Shown here: piece after piece, positions 3,185 to 24,346 of the stretch | Position numbering within the stretch: the stretch's first letter is position 1 | Layout of the letters: each line of letters begins with the position of its first letter | Virus record (IMG/VR): IMGVR_UViG_3300037231_000288 | Span: 1-34,978 of that record | DNA from: a virus | Length of the DNA stretch: 34,978 bases | Strand: one strand, 5' to 3' | Notes under the pieces: model-generated | The model's database searches: none | Seen by the model: only the letters and a program-made list of their open reading frames with translations | What the model was told of the DNA's origin: nothing | Made by a program: the position numbers and the translations under genes

Positions 3185-5240
3185 GGTCGCTCCTGAACTT
3201 TGCACCGAGCCGCGCAAACGCGTCTGGCTCGCTCCCCCCTGTTGTCTCCTCCCGGTCACTCATGAACTTGGCCACATCCACCAGCTGGGTGGACTCGGCG
3301 CCAACAGCCACCCTTTGAATACCCTTCGCAGAAGCTTCCAATGCCCTTTGAAGCGCGGGCAACTGATCGGTCATCGCATGCTGAATCGGCAGAAGGTTCG
3401 GCCCCGATGGCTCCGGTTCAGTATTCTCCGCCGCCATCGCGGCCGCTTTAGCGGCGGCGGCTCTTACCAGCCGGTCCGGCAGATCCTCGGCAATGCGGGG
3501 CCGGCGTTGGACGAAGGTTTTCAGGACGGTGCGGTCCTTGCGCTTGGCGGCGATCGCCTCGCGAAGATCCTGGGCGTCCGAATTCCAGGGCAGCATCTGG
3601 TTGGATTGTGCCACACAAATCAGCTTGTCATTGGTGCTGTACACCTGCACATGGCCGGCATACCGCTCGTCAATCCGCAGGATGACATCCTTGCCCAGCA
3701 GCTGGTGGAGCGCGGATTCGTGTTGGCCATATCGAATCCCCTGCCAAGTCACCCCGTTGCGTCCCACCTTCATCGGTCCAACGCGCTTCAGGCAAAGCAG
3801 ATCCAACAAATCTTCCGGCGCGGTTCGGCGGGTGTGGAGACAGGCGGCGTAAACATTGTCTGCCGTCTGATCAAACATCCCCTGCCCCGAATGTTGGTGG
3901 CCGGCTTCGTGTGCTGCCAGCAGATCGCCAAACCACGCGATATAGTCCTCAATCCGCGGGGCCTTGCCGCGCTCGAGGTTCAGTTGCAACCCGCCGCAAA
4001 GCGTGCCGCCGGCCGAGCGATCTTCGGGCTTGTTGGCCGTGTTGTTGCCGGTGTAAGTCGGCCACGCGCGATTCCATTCGGCGGGATTTCGAAACCAGCT
4101 TTCAATCGGCTTGGATTGCCCGTGGTATGGCCACACATGGTGGATCTGGATGCTCAGCTGCGGGAAAATCCCGGCAGACCTCTCTTCCGGCAGTTGGATC
4201 TTGATTTTGCTCTTGTCGTACCGGTCCTTTTTGGTCCGGCCGTTCAGCGCGTAACAATCATAATCCTTGCCGTTGTCCAGGTAGATGTGGTACGGCACGC
4301 CATGCTCTTTCACCGCCGCGCGGAACACGCTCAAAATCGTGTCGGCGTTTGGGGCATGATCCACGATCAGCCACCCCATGATTTTGCGGCTGCGAATGTC
4401 CTGGAACACGCTTAGCCAGGGGCGGAGCAATTTTCCCTGGCTGGAAACGATGCAATCCATCTGATGATGGTCAGCGCACCAGATTTCGTTGCTGTCGATG
4501 GACGTGTAGTCCTTCTCAATCCACGTCTCAGCCCTGGCCACGTAGGCATCTTCGCCGCCGCGCATCTTGGTAACGACCCCGGCCGGGATCTTGGCAATGT
4601 GCCGCTGGCACATCTTATAGGAGCGGATCTTCCAGCCCTGTTCCCTGGCGGTTGCCTCGGCGATGCGCAGGCAGCTGGTCAGCTTCAACTGATTCAGGTT
4701 CAGAAACAGCCGTTGAACCTCGCTCAAGAACGGGTCAGGCTCATTGGTGGAGGGACCGCCAGCGTCCTTGCTGATCTCCTTCCCGGTCCGTCCATCAATC
4801 AGCCCGACAATTCCTTCAGCGCGATAGGCACGCTGCCAGTTGTAGAGCGTACCCATCGACACCCGCGTGTTTTTGTCGATCAGCAGCCGATCGATAAACG
4901 TGTTGGTCGCGCGCACGCGGTCATAACCGATCTTGAACGCGGCCACGCAGAATTCATCCCACTCTTTCAGGATGCCTTCCCGCCGCCAGGCTTCATCGCG
5001 TTGCTTGGCGGTAAACTGCCGAAGATCCACCTGGATATGCTCAGGTGATTTGATCCGGGCAAAGGCCGGATCGGCATCTTCGCGAATCATCCAGCGCGGC
5101 TTCCCCTTGGCCGGCTTCTGCATCTCCGCCAATCCAGCCGCACGCCATTTGTTGGCGGCGTCGCGGGTGATGTGGCCTTTGGAGAGGCCAGATCGTTTGG
5201 CGGCGGTGGGAACATCGATAAACGTCTGCGAGTTGCTCAC
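3174..5240 (-). CDS. MuA-like DDE transposase
   Basis: Predicted transposase that cuts and joins phage ends and drives replicative transposition. About 688 residues: an N-terminal winged-helix-type DNA-binding region (DVPTAAKRSGLSKGHITRD), further DNA-binding helices (about 90-215), then the RNase H-fold core. Catalytic residues I would assign are Asp257 (WCADHHQMD), Asp322 (YLDNGKDY) and Glu380 (YHGQSKPIESW). The C-terminal 110 residues are Ala/Glu-rich and probably hold the MuB-contacting tail. A GTG at 5246 is possible, but the GTG at 5240 has GGGGG at better spacing and overlaps the upstream TGA. The gene directly follows the DnaA-like gene and overlaps the ATPase gene. Confidence 0.9.
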   Translation of the reverse strand: MSNSQTFIDVPTAAKRSGLSKGHITRDAANKWRAAGLAEMQKPAKGKPRWMIREDADPAFARIKSPEHIQVDLRQFTAKQRDEAWRREGILKEWDEFCVAAFKIGYDRVRATNTFIDRLLIDKNTRVSMGTLYNWQRAYRAEGIVGLIDGRTGKEISKDAGGPSTNEPDPFLSEVQRLFLNLNQLKLTSCLRIAEATAREQGWKIRSYKMCQRHIAKIPAGVVTKMRGGEDAYVARAETWIEKDYTSIDSNEIWCADHHQMDCIVSSQGKLLRPWLSVFQDIRSRKIMGWLIVDHAPNADTILSVFRAAVKEHGVPYHIYLDNGKDYDCYALNGRTKKDRYDKSKIKIQLPEERSAGIFPQLSIQIHHVWPYHGQSKPIESWFRNPAEWNRAWPTYTGNNTANKPEDRSAGGTLCGGLQLNLERGKAPRIEDYIAWFGDLLAAHEAGHQHSGQGMFDQTADNVYAACLHTRRTAPEDLLDLLCLKRVGPMKVGRNGVTWQGIRYGQHESALHQLLGKDVILRIDERYAGHVQVYSTNDKLICVAQSNQMLPWNSDAQDLREAIAAKRKDRTVLKTFVQRRPRIAEDLPDRLVRAAAAKAAAMAAENTEPEPSGPNLLPIQHAMTDQLPALQRALEASAKGIQRVAVGAESTQLVDVAKFMSDREETTGGSEPDAFARLGAKFRSDHDE

Positions 5241-5557
5241 ACCCACCCCCGAATCTTGCCTTCGATGAAACCAATCTCGGATTCAACGGCTGGATCGGTG
5301 TCACGCAATTCGGCAATGCGATTGATGCCACAGATGGCGGTGGAGTGATCCAGGCGGCGAAGCGACTTGGCTATTTCGTCAAGGCTCAAACGCGTGTCCT
5401 GGCGAATCAGGTGCATGCACACCTGCCTCGCAAACACGACGGATTTTCGTCGGCTCGATCCTTTCAGATCCGAGACCGTAACGCCGTAGCTTTCAGCCAC
5501 CAGGCTGATGACGCGCTCGGCGTGGACGCCGGGGAAGTTGTCGATGATTGCGTTCAT
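5237..5557 (-). CDS. free-standing DnaA domain IV-like DNA-binding protein
   Basis: A 106-residue protein that matches only the C-terminal DNA-binding domain of the initiator DnaA. Residues 25-53 (GVTVSDLKGSSRRK, then ARQVCMHLIRQ) and 57-81 (LSLDEIAKSLRRLDHSTAI) follow the DnaA domain IV pattern, including the signature helix with DHSTA in place of the usual DHTTV. No AAA+ module or Walker motifs precede it; the upstream sequence is another small gene. It may bind DnaA-box-like sites on phage DNA, compete with host DnaA, or recruit replication proteins to transposition intermediates. Its TGA overlaps the GTG start of the transposase and its ATG overlaps the upstream TGA, so it is coupled to transposition functions. 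Confidence 0.8.
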   Translation of the reverse strand: MNAIIDNFPGVHAERVISLVAESYGVTVSDLKGSSRRKSVVFARQVCMHLIRQDTRLSLDEIAKSLRRLDHSTAICGINRIAELRDTDPAVESEIGFIEGKIRGWV

Positions 5558-6591: not shown

Positions 6592-6884
6592 TTCACACGC
6601 TTCCTTCCCCGGCCTGGAATGCCGCTGACAATCTTGGACCGCTTGCATTGGTTCAGGTACGTCTTGAGGATCTGGTAGTCGGTCCATTGCCTGGTGAAAT
6701 CCAGCTTTGTGCGGACAAGATTGCAAACGTCCATTGCCTCTTCGGGGTGGCAGAGCAGATCATCGCGAGACCATGCCGGATGCCGCTCTCGGCGGATGCC
6801 ATTCACCGCCATCGCCACCATCTGCTTGTTGCGCAGCACGTCATCTTCAGCGCGCTCGATCGGTGATTTGAAAGACTTAGGCAT
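6588..6884 (-). CDS. hypothetical early protein, 98 aa
   Basis: Starts MPKSFKSPIERAEDDVLRNK at ATG 6884, with GGAAGGAAGG just upstream, inside the last codons of the methyltransferase gene. Helical N-terminus (VLRNKQMVAMAVNGIRRER), then a segment with WSRDDLLCHPEEAMDVC, and a basic C-terminus rich in Lys and Arg. The basic tail suggests nucleic-acid contact, but no family is recognised. The much longer frame up to 7133 is a shadow of the methyltransferase (Arg/Ser/Pro/Trp-rich). Confidence 0.6.
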   Translation of the reverse strand: MPKSFKSPIERAEDDVLRNKQMVAMAVNGIRRERHPAWSRDDLLCHPEEAMDVCNLVRTKLDFTRQWTDYQILKTYLNQCKRSKIVSGIPGRGRKRVK

Positions 6885-8229
6885 TGTCGCCTTCCTTCCG
6901 TGATGCGATTTGGGACTTGATCCATCGCTCGCTCTGCTCCAGGTATTTGGCCGAGCGGTCGATGCCGATGTATTTGCGGCCGGCCAAAATCGCCGCCAGC
7001 CCCGTGGTTCCGTTGCCGTTGAAACAATCGACGACAAGGTCACCCGGTTCGCTGGCGGCCAGAATCGCGCGGCGGGGCAGCTCCACCGGCACTTGCGGCG
7101 GCATGTCCTCAAAGGGCACGCGCTCAGAGTCATTTCCGTTCACCCGCGGGATCTGCCAGACGTTGTCGGGGCATTTCCCATCCTGGTTGGCGCGGCTGTC
7201 ACCCAGCCGCTGGCGGGCGCTCTCCACTGGCACGGGATGCCAGATGAATCCCTTTTTGCCGATCGTGTAGTAATGCAGGAACCGCGCGCAGCGGGAAAAG
7301 TTCCCCGTCTGATGCACGCCAAACGTTTCCCACCAGACGATGGTGTTGCGGCGATGCAGGCCGCCGATGCGGCGAAGGATCAATCCAAAGTGATCCGTGT
7401 AGTTGTCATCGATCAAAACAAAGATCGATCCGTTCGCCGCCAGCAGCCGCGTGGCTGATGTGATCACCCGCTGCATGCCGTCCAGGTACTCCCCATCGTT
7501 CAGATCGTCGCCGGTGGGGTCTGAGTCGTAGGCCCACTTGTTGTTGTAAGGCGGGTCGATAAATACCACGGTGGCACATCCACCGGGCAGCCGGCCCATC
7601 TCTTCCACGGCATCACCGTGGATCAGCTTCAATGCCCCCTTGGTGATCTTCGCCTCGGCGGCTTTGGCGGTGGCGTCTTTCTCTCGCTTCTCCCGCTCCA
7701 CGCGGCTGATCGCCTGGCTCAGGTTGATTTCCCTGGCTTGCAATGCCTTGTAGGTGCGCGGGGCGAATTTGCGGATCGATCGGACGTGATGGATGTACCT
7801 GGGCGAGACGCCGAACATTTCCGAAGCGATGTCCGCTTTCAGCGTGGCGATCCGTTCGATCAATGCCCGGTTGCCGCTTTGCAAATTTGCAGCCGTCTCG
7901 GGCGGAAGATCGATGTGGGTCATCGCCGCTTCAGCGGTCACGGCGCGGTCTGTCTTGCTCATCGTGCGATTGCGCATGTTCAGCGAACATATCTTTTTCA
8001 GCAGATCGCCCTTGCCGTCCCACTCTTCGTACCGGCACTGCACACCCGCTTCGTTGCACGCCTTCTGTCGCGTGCGGCCATCGGCAACCAGCAGCTGCCG
8101 TCCCTCTTTCACCAGGAGCACAGGGCGCTGCAATTCGTTGGCCTTGATGTCGGCAACGAATGAAGCGTATTCGTCACCTTCGATCATCGGGAACAATTCG
8201 GCCAGGGGATGGTGGGGATACAGCTTCAT
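6877..8229 (-). CDS. ParB-domain DNA methyltransferase (N6-adenine or N4-cytosine)
   Basis: A 450-residue fusion. Residues 1-110 resemble the ParB/Srx N-terminal domain (VADGRTRQKACNEAGV), followed by a ParB/KorB-type helix-turn-helix (about 135-152, ASEMFGVSPRYIHH) and a basic linker. From about 197 a methyltransferase follows: catalytic motif IV DPPYNN (225-230) comes before the S-adenosylmethionine motif I DCFNGNGTTG (401-410), the order seen in beta-class amino-methyltransferases. It probably modifies phage DNA against host restriction, or regulates transcription by methylation; no partner endonuclease is seen. Fusions of ParB-like and methylase domains are common in phages. It sits early in the leftward operon, overlapping both neighbours. 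Confidence 0.88.
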   Translation of the reverse strand: MKLYPHHPLAELFPMIEGDEYASFVADIKANELQRPVLLVKEGRQLLVADGRTRQKACNEAGVQCRYEEWDGKGDLLKKICSLNMRNRTMSKTDRAVTAEAAMTHIDLPPETAANLQSGNRALIERIATLKADIASEMFGVSPRYIHHVRSIRKFAPRTYKALQAREINLSQAISRVEREKREKDATAKAAEAKITKGALKLIHGDAVEEMGRLPGGCATVVFIDPPYNNKWAYDSDPTGDDLNDGEYLDGMQRVITSATRLLAANGSIFVLIDDNYTDHFGLILRRIGGLHRRNTIVWWETFGVHQTGNFSRCARFLHYYTIGKKGFIWHPVPVESARQRLGDSRANQDGKCPDNVWQIPRVNGNDSERVPFEDMPPQVPVELPRRAILAASEPGDLVVDCFNGNGTTGLAAILAGRKYIGIDRSAKYLEQSERWIKSQIASRKEGDNA

Positions 8230-8438
8230 AGTGAAACCGCCTTTAGTTCCGCCGCGCGAAGTTCGGCGAACCCGAGCGACATGAACGATCCCTCACACAT
8301 CACTTCCAGTGGACGAAGCCTGTGGTCGACAACCGGATCGCTTCCATCCGAAGTGTGGATGCCGAAGTAAGCATCGGAGCCTGGGAAGGCAGGGCGAACA
8401 TCAGTCAGTCGATCGCAGAATGGGCAAGTCTGTTTCAC
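8226..8438 (-). CDS. small hypothetical protein with an N-terminal CxxC, 70 aa
   Basis: Starts at GTG 8438, with a near-perfect Shine-Dalgarno GGAGGTGA five bases upstream, and overlaps the TGA of the CsrA-like gene (GTGA). The first residues, MKQTCPFCDRLTDVRP, hold a CPFC pair; no second pair follows, so a full zinc site would need a partner chain. The C-terminus is a helix (SLGFAELRAAELKAV). No family recognised. Strong translation is predicted. Confidence 0.6.
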   Translation of the reverse strand: MKQTCPFCDRLTDVRPAFPGSDAYFGIHTSDGSDPVVDHRLRPLEVMCEGSFMSLGFAELRAAELKAVSL

Positions 8439-8899
8439 GCGATCACCTCCGCATCTCCATCGTAGATGTCGATCTTGCCGCTCGGGTCAACAGCAAATCC
8501 CCGGCGTCCTTCTCTCATGCTCGGCTGATCACTGGGCGTCAGGCTGACCATGTCTCGCGCCGATGGATCGATCCGCTGCACCTTCTTCGGTCCGGCATCA
8601 TCGCGTTCGATCTCTACATAAGCGGGTGCGTTGATTCCGATGCGCTGCCCGTCGCATTTCGAATCGACGAAAGCGATCTCGATCCAGGCTGAATCAAATT
8701 TCGATTTTCCCGTACCGCCGATCGGCACCTTGATCGACCGGCCCCTCGAAAGCGAACAGGAGATAAAGTAGTCCGCTCCTCTGATGGAAAGAGCCACCAT
8801 GCGGAGGCCCGGATTCCATTGTTCATGCACAATGGTCACATGATCGCGACCCGCCATGCAGATGACTTCCTGACCCTCTCGACGTGTTAATACCAGCAT
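8435..8899 (-). CDS. CsrA-like RNA-binding regulator, enlarged or tandem form
   Basis: About 154 residues, starting MLVLTRREGQEVI at ATG 8899 with GGAG upstream; the seven codons before it are not needed. The start matches CsrA, with Leu4, Arg6 and Arg7 kept. The second half of a CsrA domain lies far downstream: IEIAFVDSKCDGQRIGINAP (about 73-92), then YVEIERDD with the equivalent of the key RNA-binding Arg44 at about residue 99. Ordinary CsrA is about 60 residues and dimerises. Here about 50 residues lie between the halves, and they contain a possible second set of the same strands (SLSRGRSIKVPIGG). It may be one chain folded as a dimer, with a 50-residue C-terminal tail of unknown role. Likely a translational regulator of host or phage mRNAs. 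Confidence 0.7.
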   Translation of the reverse strand: MLVLTRREGQEVICMAGRDHVTIVHEQWNPGLRMVALSIRGADYFISCSLSRGRSIKVPIGGTGKSKFDSAWIEIAFVDSKCDGQRIGINAPAYVEIERDDAGPKKVQRIDPSARDMVSLTPSDQPSMREGRRGFAVDPSGKIDIYDGDAEVIA

Positions 8900-8906
8900 T
8901 GCAATT

Positions 8907-9352
8907 ACTCCGTTAATCAAGTTTGTTACAATTCAACGCATGACGAACTTCGACCCCGCGACCGTGCCCCTGTTGCGACGGTTCGACCAACTGGAGGAAG
9001 ACCTTTTTCCGCTACATATGCAGCGGTTGCTTTCCGCATTACGTCGCGTTCTTTCATCAAGGCGCGGAACTCGGCATCGGTTGCAGAAAGCGGGAATCCT
9101 ATTATCGAAGCTGAAGGGAGTTCGATCGCAGCGGGCACTCGACCAGATGCTTTCGACCCTGACCGCGAAGGACGTGCTTTCGATCTGGTGGTATTGCCTG
9201 CTGGTGAGGAACCAGGTGTTCCGCTATCGCGCCGACACTCTCGGCTTCCAGGCTTTGCGGAAGGACATGGGGAAGCGCCCGAACCGGTTGACGTTTCTGC
9301 GTGCCGTCCTGAAATATGCCGCCGCTTCCCAATCATGATGACACTCCGTTAA
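8907..9352. repeat. 10-bp direct repeat flanking an opposed gene
   Basis: ACTCCGTTAA occurs at 8907-8916 and at 9343-9352, immediately outside the plus-strand gene at 8940-9338. On the minus strand each copy reads TTAACGGAGT and so carries a GGAG Shine-Dalgarno motif. The left copy serves the CsrA-like gene; the right one stands nine bases before an ATG at 9336. Confidence 0.7.
8940..9338 (+). CDS. hypothetical protein on the opposite strand, 132 aa
   Basis: A frame opposed to the surrounding early operon. My hand count gives about 70% G/C at third codon positions, with position 1 intermediate and position 2 lowest, the normal coding pattern for this window; the antisense frame shows the reverse. 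The protein is basic and helical: PLLRRFDQLEEDLFPLHMQR, then SQRALDQMLSTLTAKDVLSI, then WWYCLLVRNQVFRYRAD. No clear Shine-Dalgarno precedes the ATG. No family recognised. Transcribed from the plus strand it would run antisense to any leftward transcript from the operator region to csrA. A minus-strand gene at 8926-9336 is the alternative, considered less likely. Confidence 0.5.
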   Translation: MTNFDPATVPLLRRFDQLEEDLFPLHMQRLLSALRRVLSSRRGTRHRLQKAGILLSKLKGVRSQRALDQMLSTLTAKDVLSIWWYCLLVRNQVFRYRADTLGFQALRKDMGKRPNRLTFLRAVLKYAAASQS

Positions 9353-9356
9353 GTTG

Positions 9357-9503
9357 TTCGTTCAAACGGACCGGGAAACCTTTCGACTTCCCGACCGTCT
9401 TCAGCCGCTCACGCGCCTTTCGGCTTGTGGGCCTTGCATGGGATGTCTCCCGTGCGTCTCGAACCTTCGTTCAAACCATCCAGAGAACCTTTCGATCCTC
9501 TGG
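9357..9503. other. cluster of related hairpins (candidate structured RNA or leader)
   Basis: Two imperfect direct repeats 109 bases apart share TTCGTTCAAAC (9357-9367 and 9466-9476) and ACCTTTCGA (9378-9386 and 9487-9495). In each, the second block is the loop of a hairpin whose stem differs but still pairs: CGGGAA/TTCCCG at 9372-9393 and CCAGAG/CTCTGG at 9480-9503. Between them lie a small GCCTTTCGGC hairpin (9415-9424) and a GGGATGTCTCCC inverted repeat. No T-runs follow, so these are not ordinary terminators. On the minus strand the loops read TCGAAAGGT. No gene was found in 9339-9543. Confidence 0.55.
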
Positions 9504-9696: not shown

Positions 9697-9816
9697 ATTC
9701 GCACCATTTTTACGGTGTGTCAAGAGATTCCGTCATATGTCGTCATACACGGTATATCTTGCCATTGCTCCTGTCAAGCAACAATTTCACTCTGGGGGAA
9801 AATTGTATGACGTTAG
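9697..9816. promoter_or_regulatory. divergent promoter region with a symmetric operator pair
   Basis: A leftward promoter is suggested by a perfect TTGACA (minus strand, 9777-9772) and TATACC (9756-9751), although the spacing is only 15 bases. Just downstream of it lies CGTCATATGTCGTCATAC (9731-9748): two CGTCATA blocks exactly 10 bases apart. An inverted version stands at 9805-9822, where TATGACG and GATGACG are again 10 bases apart; its reverse complement matches the left site at 15 of 18 positions. The right site covers the start region of the repressor gene. These are likely repressor or RHH-protein operators, placed to control early transcription and repressor synthesis. Confidence 0.65.
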
Positions 9817-10518
9817 ATGACGAATGATGCTAATATCTGTCGAATGGAAGTTGATTTTTCGAGCTGGCTTAGGCGACAAATTGGCAAGAGGGGAATGCTG
9901 ATCAAGCAATTCTCCGAGCACTCCGGTATACCGCTTCAAACGATCAATCAATGGATGAAACCTCAGGTGCCAAATCCACTTCCGAAGAACATCAAGCTTC
10001 TCGCTGGGGCACTTGGAATGGAATACGAGCAGGTCGAAAAGGTGCTTTCTGAATGCCGAGCATCATCGGGAGCGACGGGCGATCCGGGCGAGATGATGGG
10101 TGGATGGAAGACGCCCAAAATTCCACCCGTCCCTATATTTGAAAGGAATCTGGCGGCCGGATTTTGGACTGAGGCCGTCGGTGTTTCAGAATCGGAAGTT
10201 TCTCTATTGCAGGCAGAAATTAGCCTTTTTCAGGTTAGAATCTCGGGCGATTCGATGGAGCCCGATTATCCTGATGGCTCGCTGGTCGAGTTTCGGGTGA
10301 TCCGCGTAGCCGACGATGGGATTGAGCCAGGGGGGAATTTCTACATCCATCGCGACGACGACATGGCAACCTTCAAGAGAGTTGAATCCATGACAGAGGA
10401 CGCTATTCTCCTTCGTGCTTTAAACGTGGGAAAATATCCAGGGTTGATGCCGGTTGACCGCGCTAGAATTGTTCGGGCGGCGAGGGCAACCCGGCGGCTG
10501 AAAGGACTTTCAGAATGA
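9817..10518 (+). CDS. CI/LexA-type phage repressor with S24 self-cleavage domain
   Basis: Maintains lysogeny by binding operators. The N-terminal helix-turn-helix spans about residues 25-60 (MLIKQFSEHSGIPLQTINQW). A linker with a candidate Ala114-Gly115 cleavage site (NLAAGFW) leads to a peptidase S24 domain with catalytic Ser146 (RISGDSMEPDY) and Lys187 (ATFKRVE). All parts needed for RecA-stimulated autocleavage are present, so induction by DNA damage is expected. Two ATGs are possible: 9817, lying inside the right operator, and 9844 (MEVDFSSWL). Neither has a good ribosome-binding site, and a six-codon frame at 9807-9827 with a better one overlaps the first. The stop overlaps the next gene. 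Confidence 0.88.
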   Translation: MTNDANICRMEVDFSSWLRRQIGKRGMLIKQFSEHSGIPLQTINQWMKPQVPNPLPKNIKLLAGALGMEYEQVEKVLSECRASSGATGDPGEMMGGWKTPKIPPVPIFERNLAAGFWTEAVGVSESEVSLLQAEISLFQVRISGDSMEPDYPDGSLVEFRVIRVADDGIEPGGNFYIHRDDDMATFKRVESMTEDAILLRALNVGKYPGLMPVDRARIVRAARATRRLKGLSE

Positions 10519-14561: not shown

Positions 14562-15922
14562 TGACATCTTCACTCGACTATTTTCTGCCTTACCAGCAAG
14601 CCTGGCTCAATGAGCCGGCTCCGCTGGCAATGGGGCGCAAGAGCCGCCGGGTCGGCTGGACTTATGTGTCCAGTTATCGCGCTGTCGAGCGCCGGGTGAA
14701 GGGGCTTTGCAATCTGTATTTCTCCTCCGCCGATCTGACCAGCGCGCGGGAGTTTATCGATTACTGCAAAACGTGGTGTGAAGTGTTCAACGCGGCGGCG
14801 GCAGAATCCACTGAAACCGAAGTGATCGCCGACTCCGAACTCACCAGCCTGGTATTAACCTTTGGCAACGGGAAAAAAATCGTCGCCGGTTCCAGCAATC
14901 CGAAATTCTTTCGCAGCAAGGGCGGGGATGCGGATCTGGATGAATTTGCTTTTCATCGCGATGGTCGTGAGCTCTACAAAGCCGCCCACGCGACCGCGCT
15001 CTTCTGGCGGTACCAGCTGCGGATCTGGTCCACCGCCAACGGCGAAGGATGCTATTACAACCAACTGCTCAAGGCTCAGGAAGCGGGGACCATTAAAGCA
15101 TCAGTCCACACGGTCACCATCCTTGACGCGGTGGATCAGGGGCTTGCGGAAAAGGTGCTGAAACTCAAGGCCCGCGATGACAAAGCCCGTCAGGAATTCA
15201 TTGACGAGCTGCACGCCACCTGCCCGGATGAAGACACCTGGAATCAGGAATACATGTGCAAGCCCTCGACCGATGCCACATCGCTGTTGAGCTATGACCT
15301 GATCCGATCGTGCGAAGCATCTCCGGCCACCGCCGCTGATCCTGATGGTCTGACCATCTTCCAATCGCCTGAGCAGTTGCCATCCGATGGCACGATGTAC
15401 GCGGGCTATGACGTGGGCCGCCAGCGCGATCTTTCGGTGCTGTGGGTGATTCGCAAGGTGGGTGATGTGTTCCGCACCGTGATGCTGCGCGAACTCTCGA
15501 AGGTGGATTACACCGCCCAGGAAGGGCTGCTGAATGTGCTACTGGCCAACCGAGCCATCAAGCGACTCTGCATCGACGGCACCGGCATCGGCGACATGCT
15601 GGCCGAACGCTCTCGCCAGAAGTGGGGAGGCCGCGTTGAAAACATCCACTTCACATCAGCGGTGAAAGAAGAGCTGGCGATGCCGCTGGTTCGGCTCTTC
15701 CAGGATCGCCTGGTGCGCATCCCCGCGGTGGATGCGGTTCGCGAGGATCTGCACAAGATCCGCAAGATTGTCACCGCTTCGAACAACGTGCGGTTTGATG
15801 CCGAGCGCGATGCCGGCGGCCACGCTGATCGCTTCTGGGCGCTGGCCCTGGCCTACCACGCCGCCGGCGCGGCCAAGATTCCCTTGCCGCCTTCCCGGCG
15901 GCAGAAACCGGCGGGGTGGTGA
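14561..15922 (+). CDS. large terminase subunit (Mu gp28-like)
   Basis: The DNA-packaging motor and nuclease, 453 residues. The ATPase half shows a degenerate Walker A GRKSRRVGWT (25-34), as is usual for Mu gp28-type terminases, a Walker B strand DADLDEFAF with Asp127-Glu128, and a coupling motif RIWSTANGEG (about 154-163). The nuclease half has RNase H-type acidic residues: Asp284 (YAGYDVGRQRDLS), Asp339 (LCIDGTGIGD) and Asp423 (HADRFWALA). It is complete, and the portal follows. Mu-type packaging from host-flanked ends (headful) would fit the transposase, but sequence alone does not show it. Confidence 0.88.
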   Translation: MTSSLDYFLPYQQAWLNEPAPLAMGRKSRRVGWTYVSSYRAVERRVKGLCNLYFSSADLTSAREFIDYCKTWCEVFNAAAAESTETEVIADSELTSLVLTFGNGKKIVAGSSNPKFFRSKGGDADLDEFAFHRDGRELYKAAHATALFWRYQLRIWSTANGEGCYYNQLLKAQEAGTIKASVHTVTILDAVDQGLAEKVLKLKARDDKARQEFIDELHATCPDEDTWNQEYMCKPSTDATSLLSYDLIRSCEASPATAADPDGLTIFQSPEQLPSDGTMYAGYDVGRQRDLSVLWVIRKVGDVFRTVMLRELSKVDYTAQEGLLNVLLANRAIKRLCIDGTGIGDMLAERSRQKWGGRVENIHFTSAVKEELAMPLVRLFQDRLVRIPAVDAVREDLHKIRKIVTASNNVRFDAERDAGGHADRFWALALAYHAAGAAKIPLPPSRRQKPAGW

Positions 15923-15948
15923 GTGAGATGCGAACCATTCTTCTTTTC

Positions 15949-15983
15949 ATTCTGCATTCTGCACTATGCATTCTGCACTTGCC
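15949..15983 (+). repeat. heptad tandem repeat, ATTCTGC type
   Basis: Five consecutive 7-base units between terminase and portal: ATTCTGC, ATTCTGC, ACTATGC, ATTCTGC, ACTTGCC. The tract ends about 20 bases before the portal ATG, leaving room for the GGAGGGCGGAG ribosome-binding site. It is one of six such tracts at late-gene junctions. Confidence 0.75.
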
Positions 15984-16002
15984 CGACCGGAGGGCGGAGC
16001 TA

Positions 16003-23011: not shown

Positions 23012-24346
23012 ATGAAACCGCGAACCAATACAAATGCGAACGTCCAACGTCCAACGTCCAACGTCCAACGTCGAAATGGCGGACGCCTTTCTTTACTTCG
23101 AAGTTGGACGTTGGAAGTTGGACGTTGGACGTTCGTTTTAATTCTCCTTCTCCTTCTCCCTTTGATCGCAAGAGCGGCGTCCACCACCCAGCCCGCCATC
23201 TACATCAGAGATTGCACTGCCCTCACCGACGCCTCCGCTCCGGTCGCCAACGGCGGATCGCTCTATCTCTCACAGCTGCCTGCCAAGTGGACGCTGGACT
23301 ATGATTTCGGGCTGGCGGCCGGTCACACCTGTCAGACGATCTTTGCTGTCGACGGCGGCAAGCCCGTGCAGCTCTGGACGCCGCCCTACAGTCCCGCCGG
23401 GCACAATATTCCGTTGGCTCTTTCAACCGGCACTCACACAATCACCCTGACGGTCAATGGGGCCGCGATCGCCCCGCTGACATTCACCCTGGGCACGGCC
23501 CCGCCTATCCTGCCCACGGGTCAGATCGCCCAGCCCTTCACGCTCATCATTAATGCGGGCGGCATCAGCGATCCGGCCATCAACCTGGCGACCCATCCGC
23601 TCTATCTTCCTTTTTTCAAATCGGCGGGAGTGACGGGGCTAAGAGTCTGGACCGAAGGCGCGTTCGCCGCGCCTCAACCGGCGAGTTATTACGCGGCGCT
23701 CTTGCCCTGGCAGAAGGCCGGCGTCCATGTCATCGCGGTCGCTAACTTTCAAAACAGTGTCCCGCGTCTGTCGGCTCCGACTGATGCCGTCTGGACCGCC
23801 TGGCTGACCGCCATCCCTCCGCCCGCCACCACTGGCATCTGGGCGATTGAGATTGGCAACGAAGTCAATACCGGAGACTACTACAACGGATCTGGTCAGC
23901 AACTGGCTCATCTGATGCAGCTGGCCTACCCGATCCTGCATGCAAAGGGGTATGTGGTCATCGCGCCCAGCACGCTCAACAGCCTGAACGAAATCCAGAC
24001 GCTGGTGGGGTTGGGCGCTTATCAGTGGGCCGACTATCTCAACATCCACTCGTACCGCGGCACACCCGCCGCGATCGCCGCCGATGCTGATGCGGCCTCT
24101 CCGATCGCCGCCAGCGTGGGAAAGCCGCTGGCAATGACCGAAGAGGGCTTGCGGCTCGGCAATGTGCCGGCGGCCGTGCTGGCGTCCCAGCAGGTGCAGA
24201 CGACTGGACTATTGAGTCAGCGGTCCGTGCTGGCGGGGTATTTCCCGCTCTATCTGATGGCCAGCGACACGCTGGACATCGCAGCACCCTTCACTGCGAC
24301 TGGGGCGATCAATCAGCCGTTCTATGGCGCGATGGGGGGCAAGTAG
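23012..24346 (+). CDS. secreted glycoside-hydrolase-like protein (clan GH-A pattern)
   Basis: 444 residues in the open frame. The first 33 residues are encoded by heptad repeats (NVQRPTSNVQRR). A signal peptide follows: EVGRWTFVLILLLLLPLIAR, then AAST. A TTG at 23111 would start exactly before it, and may be the real start. The mature part has a small beta domain and then a TIM-barrel-like region: WAIEIGNEVNTG with likely acid/base Glu284, and AMTEEGLRLG with likely nucleophile Glu377. The two lie about 93 residues apart, as in clan GH-A enzymes. The substrate is unknown. A Sec signal suggests release from the host cell rather than assembly in the virion, which is unusual inside a head module. 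Confidence 0.7.
   Translation: MKPRTNTNANVQRPTSNVQRRNGGRLSLLRSWTLEVGRWTFVLILLLLLPLIARAASTTQPAIYIRDCTALTDASAPVANGGSLYLSQLPAKWTLDYDFGLAAGHTCQTIFAVDGGKPVQLWTPPYSPAGHNIPLALSTGTHTITLTVNGAAIAPLTFTLGTAPPILPTGQIAQPFTLIINAGGISDPAINLATHPLYLPFFKSAGVTGLRVWTEGAFAAPQPASYYAALLPWQKAGVHVIAVANFQNSVPRLSAPTDAVWTAWLTAIPPPATTGIWAIEIGNEVNTGDYYNGSGQQLAHLMQLAYPILHAKGYVVIAPSTLNSLNEIQTLVGLGAYQWADYLNIHSYRGTPAAIAADADAASPIAASVGKPLAMTEEGLRLGNVPAAVLASQQVQTTGLLSQRSVLAGYFPLYLMASDTLDIAAPFTATGAINQPFYGAMGGK
23037..23135 (+). repeat. 36-bp inverted repeat made of AACGTCC heptads
   Basis: Left arm 23037-23072 and right arm 23100-23135 are reverse complements at 34 of 36 positions, with a 27-base loop; the outer 19 bases (CGAACGTCCAACGTCCAAC) pair perfectly. 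Both arms are runs of the 7-base unit AACGTCC/GGACGTT. The structure lies inside the annotated 5' part of the glycosidase frame. Confidence 0.85.

Follow-up and report, generated by a model that had tools for sequence, protein, structure and literature searches.

CsrA is known from textbooks as an obligate interlocked dimer, and the bridging of two GGA sites of the same mRNA is regarded as central to its repression. Each RNA site is formed by the parallel strands beta1 and beta5 of opposing monomers; residues L4 and R44 are critical, and the exchange R44A abolishes binding (PMC7652899). The strands of the sheets follow the order beta5A-beta2B-beta3B-beta4B-beta1A (PMC3791407). A relative of CsrA, RsmN/RsmF, carries a 16-residue helix between beta2 and beta3 and forms a homodimer of 71-residue chains (PMC3791407). 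The C-terminal domain of YqeH is a one-chain, two-repeat sandwich which resembles the CsrA dimer, is related to it by segment swapping and has no CsrA sequence signature (PMC2954204). Genes for CsrA are also known from phages, one survey listing them in 30 of 2517 phage genomes (PMC7366521).

The protein considered here, P0001, resembles CsrA/RsmA/RsmE (PF02599) in its beta1 (MLVLTR), in its closing strands (RIGINAP..VEIERD), in the equivalents of L4/R6 and R44, and in a predicted all-beta core. It differs by its length of 154 aa from the CsrA chain of about 60 aa with a single beta1-beta5 unit; the predicted core comprises 103 residues in one chain, compared with two chains of about 60, and contains nine strands and one intact RNA site. 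While the interlocked CsrA homodimer has two identical RNA sites, the single-chain prediction for P0001 has one site without the arginine. A C-terminal helix after beta5 is not predicted (the model ends at residue 106, and the tail is of low confidence). With RsmN/RsmF the protein shares the kinship to CsrA and the presence of extra residues which alter the path of the chain, but the helical insert is missing, since AF2 predicts no helix in residues 1-106, where the model ends. A likeness to the YqeH domain would lie in the one-chain, two-repeat architecture proposed for P0001.

The window, i.e., the whole stretch of DNA which was analysed, has 34,978 bases; it is a viral record of IMG/VR from a Mu-like phage. 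The coding sequence of P0001 starts with ATG and occupies positions 8435-8899 on the minus strand; the plus strand is interrupted by stop codons there, and the open reading frame is real. The coordinates given in an earlier note on this DNA were correct, the strand of the gene being minus. The gene is the first clear member of a leftward early operon. A Shine-Dalgarno-like GGAG (8908-8911, minus strand) is located 8 nt from the ATG within the sequence ACGGA, which corresponds to the CsrA-type motif ANGGA. Autoregulation of P0001 via this motif could occur and would be compatible with its position, but the motif is unremarkable, because Shine-Dalgarno sequences are GGA-rich. RNA folding of the leader showed no unusual structure (z +2.1). 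The next gene of the operon (8226-8438, minus strand) overlaps the stop of the csrA-like gene by 4 bp and encodes a 70-aa CxxC protein. The early region, entirely on the minus strand, contains a Mu transposase (PF02914), an AAA protein at the position of MuB, a GemA-like protein and a DNA methylase; a repressor of the S24 type (9817-10518) is divergent from the early operon. Such a location within the early operon, with repressor and methylase nearby, points to a protein which regulates early phage or host mRNAs.

The Pfam profile of CsrA (PF02599) matched P0001 with 30.5 bits (E 3.6e-7), above the curated cut-off of 27, in two stretches: residues 1-14 correspond to profile positions 1-14 and residues 73-101 to positions 18-46. 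Judged by the profile alone, P0001 looks like a single CsrA in which about 58 additional residues separate strand 1 from strands 3-5. The strings named in the earlier note are all present: MLVLTRREGQEVI at 1-13, HVTIVH at 20, RMVALS at 33, SLSRGR at 49 and RIGINAP at 86. The strand beta1, MLVLTRR (8879-8899, minus strand), would provide the first half of the retained RNA site with L4 and R6, and is identical in the related phage L015 up to R6 and in the bacterial contig L003 (both see below). The closing strands GQRIGINAPAYVEIERDD (8597-8650, minus strand; profile 18-46) would provide the second half with R99, the equivalent of R44 of CsrA. When scored separately against the Pfam profile, the halves of P0001 reached 13.9-14.4 and 20.3-20.8 bits, both under the cut-off of 27, and the thresholds of the NCBIfam equivalogs "carbon storage regulator CsrA" were missed (22.4 bits vs 73; 15.8 vs 70.1). 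Residues 1-57 and 44-103 each scored higher against CsrA than all of their own 2000 shuffles; for this reason, and because a syntenic orthologue exists, the match is considered to be beyond chance.

The middle of the protein (residues 15-72; 8684-8857, minus strand) is read as beta2, 3 and 4 of a first copy, a shared strand, DYFISCSLSRG (45-51), and beta2' of a second copy. Against a profile of ordinary CsrA it scored at shuffle level (982 of 2000 shuffles; 340 of 2000 for the middle of the L015 protein), a joint test gave z 1.2, and a PF02599 search with the P0001 middle alone yielded no score; units A and B of P0001, as delimited below, did not align with each other. The segments LSIRGADYF / LTIKGPGYF stand at the place of CsrA LGIEAPKEV, and SLSRGRSIKVPIGG can be put beside CsrA LSRKLGEKIIIGE, which is suggestive only.

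The syntenic orthologue (L015:7545-7883) belongs to another Mu-like phage, whose transposase is 35% identical to that of the P0001 phage; the CsrA-like proteins share 44% identity and have the same architecture. As with P0001, a similar small CxxC gene adjoins it (homology of the two CxxC proteins by eye). The middles of both proteins, aligned alone, gave z 19 with none of 5000 shuffles as good, and the P0001 middle is thus conserved protein. The first 30 residues of the L015 protein match profile positions 1-24 without interruption, a split different from that in P0001; since the L015 protein shows positions 18-24 in its first unit and P0001 shows them in its last, they are covered in both units across the orthologues. 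The L015 protein stops about 12 residues beyond the core. The tail of about 50 residues described in the earlier note (residues 104-154; 8438-8590, minus strand) is real, lies outside the core, is modelled with low confidence and is lacking in the orthologue. Residues 25-64 of L015:7545-7880 showed a weak match (E 0.08) to phrog_22540, a 116-aa phage family of unknown function, which might be a further family of single-chain CsrA proteins.

A spaced DNA pattern (MLVLTR, 75-85 codons, IGINAP), applied to GTDB genomes, retrieved a 114-aa protein, P0002 (L003:2874-3218), on the contig JAIFWS010000036.1 of a metagenome-assembled genome. This contig carries leuS and an ordinary csrA next door and is bacterial, not from a phage. 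Each half of P0002 is recognized by Pfam CsrA on its own (E 1.4e-6 for profile positions 1-43, E 5e-12 for positions 8-48), and the alignment of the two halves reaches z 9; judged by these matches, P0002 is an unmistakable CsrA tandem. Thus, two-unit CsrA chains of about this length exist in nature. P0002 has the same ends as P0001, a core of about 101 residues compared with 103, and strands for an intact outer and a degenerate inner site; in contrast to P0001, both of its units are clearly CsrA, beta1' is separate, the contig is bacterial and the middles are not alignable, no significant alignment between them having been obtained. Searches of 287, 36 and 247 Patescibacteria genomes (phylum, family and order, respectively) revealed no second two-unit CsrA like P0002, and those other matches which were read were ordinary single CsrA genes; P0002 appears to be rare. 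Upstream of the ordinary and the tandem csrA, a 67-aa open reading frame (L003:2137-2340, plus strand) resembles by eye a degenerate third CsrA (VGKSLYVGDVVFTITELHG..RVEIVTPNGIYVGRME); it had no Pfam match even at E 10.

Structure prediction with AF2 for residues 1-106 of P0001, using seven rows (P0001, the L015 protein, P0002 and four ordinary CsrA), resulted in a pLDDT of 89.3 and a pTM of 0.83, all five models exceeding 85. The model is one compact all-beta domain of nine strands, with the core at residues 1-103 (8591-8899, minus strand) and strands at 2-6, 11-16, 19-29, 34-40, 45-51, 55-59, 72-81, 84-90 and 96-99. Confidence was above 90 for residues 1-60 and 71-100, with 93-96 for residues 11-60, and 70 for the loop 61-70. 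An initial run with three rows, including the tail and no ordinary CsrA, gave the same nine strands at a pLDDT of only 47, with 24-36 past residue 110; the confident model therefore leans on the rows of ordinary CsrA. The strands can be read as beta1, 2, 3 and 4, the shared strand, and beta2', 3', 4' and 5' of CsrA, and their order in the sheets would follow from this reading. The predicted monomer is a compact beta domain of the CsrA type, in which the first set of strands is complete and the second largely so. An unrelated inserted domain or disorder in the middle, which would have spoken against a double CsrA, was not found: the middle is conserved, and in the prediction it completes one compact domain with the chain ends.

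Among the 50 best Foldseek matches of the confident model in the PDB, none had an E value below 0.001, all being above 0.04, and YqeH (3ec1) was absent from these 50. This would be no surprise if the PDB contained the fold solely in the form of a dimer of chains. Matches of the initial model to fatty-acid-binding proteins were meaningless at a pLDDT of 47 and were dropped. Among viral models (BFVD), which are themselves predictions, seven proteins of 81-114 aa matched over 98-108 columns with E<0.001 and 13-24% identity. The best of them, A0A6J5RUQ1 from an uncultured Caudovirales phage (114 aa, "Carbon storage regulator"), has the same predicted fold as P0001 over 105 columns (TM 0.70, rmsd 3.5, 24% identity). 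The model of an ordinary 64-aa phage CsrA could be superposed on the P0001 model over 43 columns with an rmsd of 1.4 Å.

In a fused chain, one RNA site would consist of the N-terminal beta1 and the C-terminal beta5, and the other of beta5 of the first unit and beta1 of the second. The outer site is intact in P0001, the L015 protein and P0002 (L4 and R6; R99, R96 and R97, respectively), and in all three the beta5 arginine is confined to the last unit. In the inner site, the residues aligned with R44 are Ser49 in P0001, Ser in the L015 protein and Trp45 in P0002; the place of R6 in the inner site of P0002 is occupied by Met. The pair of residues characteristic of CsrA, L4 in beta1 and R44 in beta5, is found once per P0001 chain, as L4 and R99, and one GGA site per chain is to be expected from the sequence. 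The two different RNA sites proposed in the earlier note were not confirmed, as the inner site is without the essential beta5 arginine and its beta5 and beta1' are merged in the model into the single strand 45-51.

We consider it somewhat probable (about 0.55) that P0001 is an RNA-binding protein of the CsrA family which represents the CsrA dimer in single-chain form. A pair of CsrA units would be merged head to tail, unit A comprising residues 1-51 (beta1-beta5) and unit B residues 45-99 (beta1'-beta5'), and strand 45-51 (DYFISCS, running into SLSRG) would serve both as beta5 of A and as beta1 of B. Because beta5 and beta1 of opposing subunits run as parallel neighbours in the dimer, a single strand could take the place of both with no linker being needed; it would enter from beta4 and leave to beta2'. 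Such a chain would need no partner and would presumably be monomeric, having kept one canonical RNA site, composed of the N-terminal strand (L4, R6) and the C-terminal strand (R99), and having lost the other. The single chain which was suggested earlier is for the most part supported, by the predicted compact domain, the conserved middle, the existence of a tandem in L003 and the viral fold relatives, while descent of the middle from CsrA cannot be shown by sequence alone. We propose only tentatively that P0001 is a natural monovalent CsrA, in which the interlocked dimer collapsed by fusion to a nine-strand chain, a single strand replacing the two parallel strands of the lost site.

A different explanation would be one CsrA unit with a beta-rich insert of 58 residues between beta1 and beta3, which forms a homodimer like CsrA/RsmN with two RNA sites per dimer. 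The Pfam profile indeed covers the CsrA model just once, with the split at residues 15-72, there is no detectable CsrA signal in the insert, and RsmN shows that inserts in CsrA are tolerable and able to redirect the chain (PMC3791407). On the other hand, AF2 places the middle of the lone chain with high confidence in one compact domain with the ends, the CsrA chain is repeated in number and order of strands, with beta2-like segments occurring twice (11-16, 55-59), and P0002 is a proven tandem with the same ends; we regard the insert as unlikely, but as an explanation to be taken seriously. Loss of the inner site and the strong divergence from the seven best fold relatives (13-24% identity) would also suit a CsrA-derived fold which has given up binding of GGA RNA and acts as a protein-binding module, e.g., to antagonize the CsrA or an anti-phage regulator of the host. 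This appears improbable in view of L4, R6 and the beta5 arginine, which P0002 and the proteins of both phages retain at their ends, as would be expected under selection for a single RNA site. Very improbable, finally, is the reading first suggested, a single-chain dimer whose two RNA sites differ and both work: by eye, the shared strand offers a hydrophobic residue in the position of L4 and an arginine in that of R6 (SLSR; SIER in the L015 protein), but in the first unit the arginine R44 is replaced by Ser in both phages and by Trp in P0002, nine strands do not accommodate both beta5 and beta1', and R44A abolishes binding in CsrA (PMC7652899).

As a single-chain CsrA, P0001 would probably bind single GGA motifs in leaders of phage or host mRNAs, early in infection or during the lysogeny decision. 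Subunit exchange with the CsrA of the host would not take place, and a single GGA would be held at a time; the protein may act as a competitor or as a simple blocker of ribosome binding. If true, a natural one-site, single-chain CsrA would allow a direct test of the extent to which CsrA regulation depends on the second site, would be a ready-made orthogonal RNA binder, and would show a route from interlocked dimer to monomer in evolution. A monovalent CsrA would, if true, be unable to bridge two GGA sites, and its fold would be shared with a broader set of phage proteins, most of them unnamed. This suggests a group of unannotated phage RNA regulators which are missed by sequence searches.

Close relatives of P0001 were found neither in IMG/VR or GTDB genomes (related-locus search) nor in GenBank phages and plasmids (tblastn). 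The spaced pattern gave only L003 in genomes, and a relaxed version gave L015 again in viruses; of the other two matches, L100 is an ordinary csrA and L099 a chance match with stop codons. A PF02599 search of whole records of 50 related Mu-like phages detected only L015, and the phage csrA genes inspected from a tblastn list of 100 GenBank phage records were all single-unit, with no two-unit csrA among them. No paper on tandem CsrA was found in the open-access literature.

Several other features of the window were observed. The N6/N4 DNA methylase (6877-8229, minus strand; PF01555, E 1.4e-39) has a ParB-like N-terminal part by eye, and L002 and L014 carry the same gene close to the repressor. 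A 106-aa protein (5237-5557, minus strand), encoded immediately upstream of the gene for the Mu-type transposase, consists almost solely of the C-terminal DNA-binding domain of DnaA (PF08299, E 9.7e-21); judging from this match, it could be a phage-borne DnaA domain IV which binds DnaA boxes. Between the repressor and the early operon there is a 30-bp direct repeat (9357-9386 and 9466-9495; 80% identical, 109 bp apart). A 19-bp inverted repeat (9731-9749 and 9804-9822; 84% complementary; TGTATGACG..), just before the start of the repressor, contains candidate operator sites of the immunity switch. Short repeats (FILHSALCILHL, NVQRPTSNVQR, CILHSAF) within or before open reading frames at 15916-16000 and 23012-23100 (both plus strand) of the window and at 9450-9600 of L015 look like intergenic repeat elements, which we assume may hint at a host among the Planctomycetes or Verrucomicrobia.
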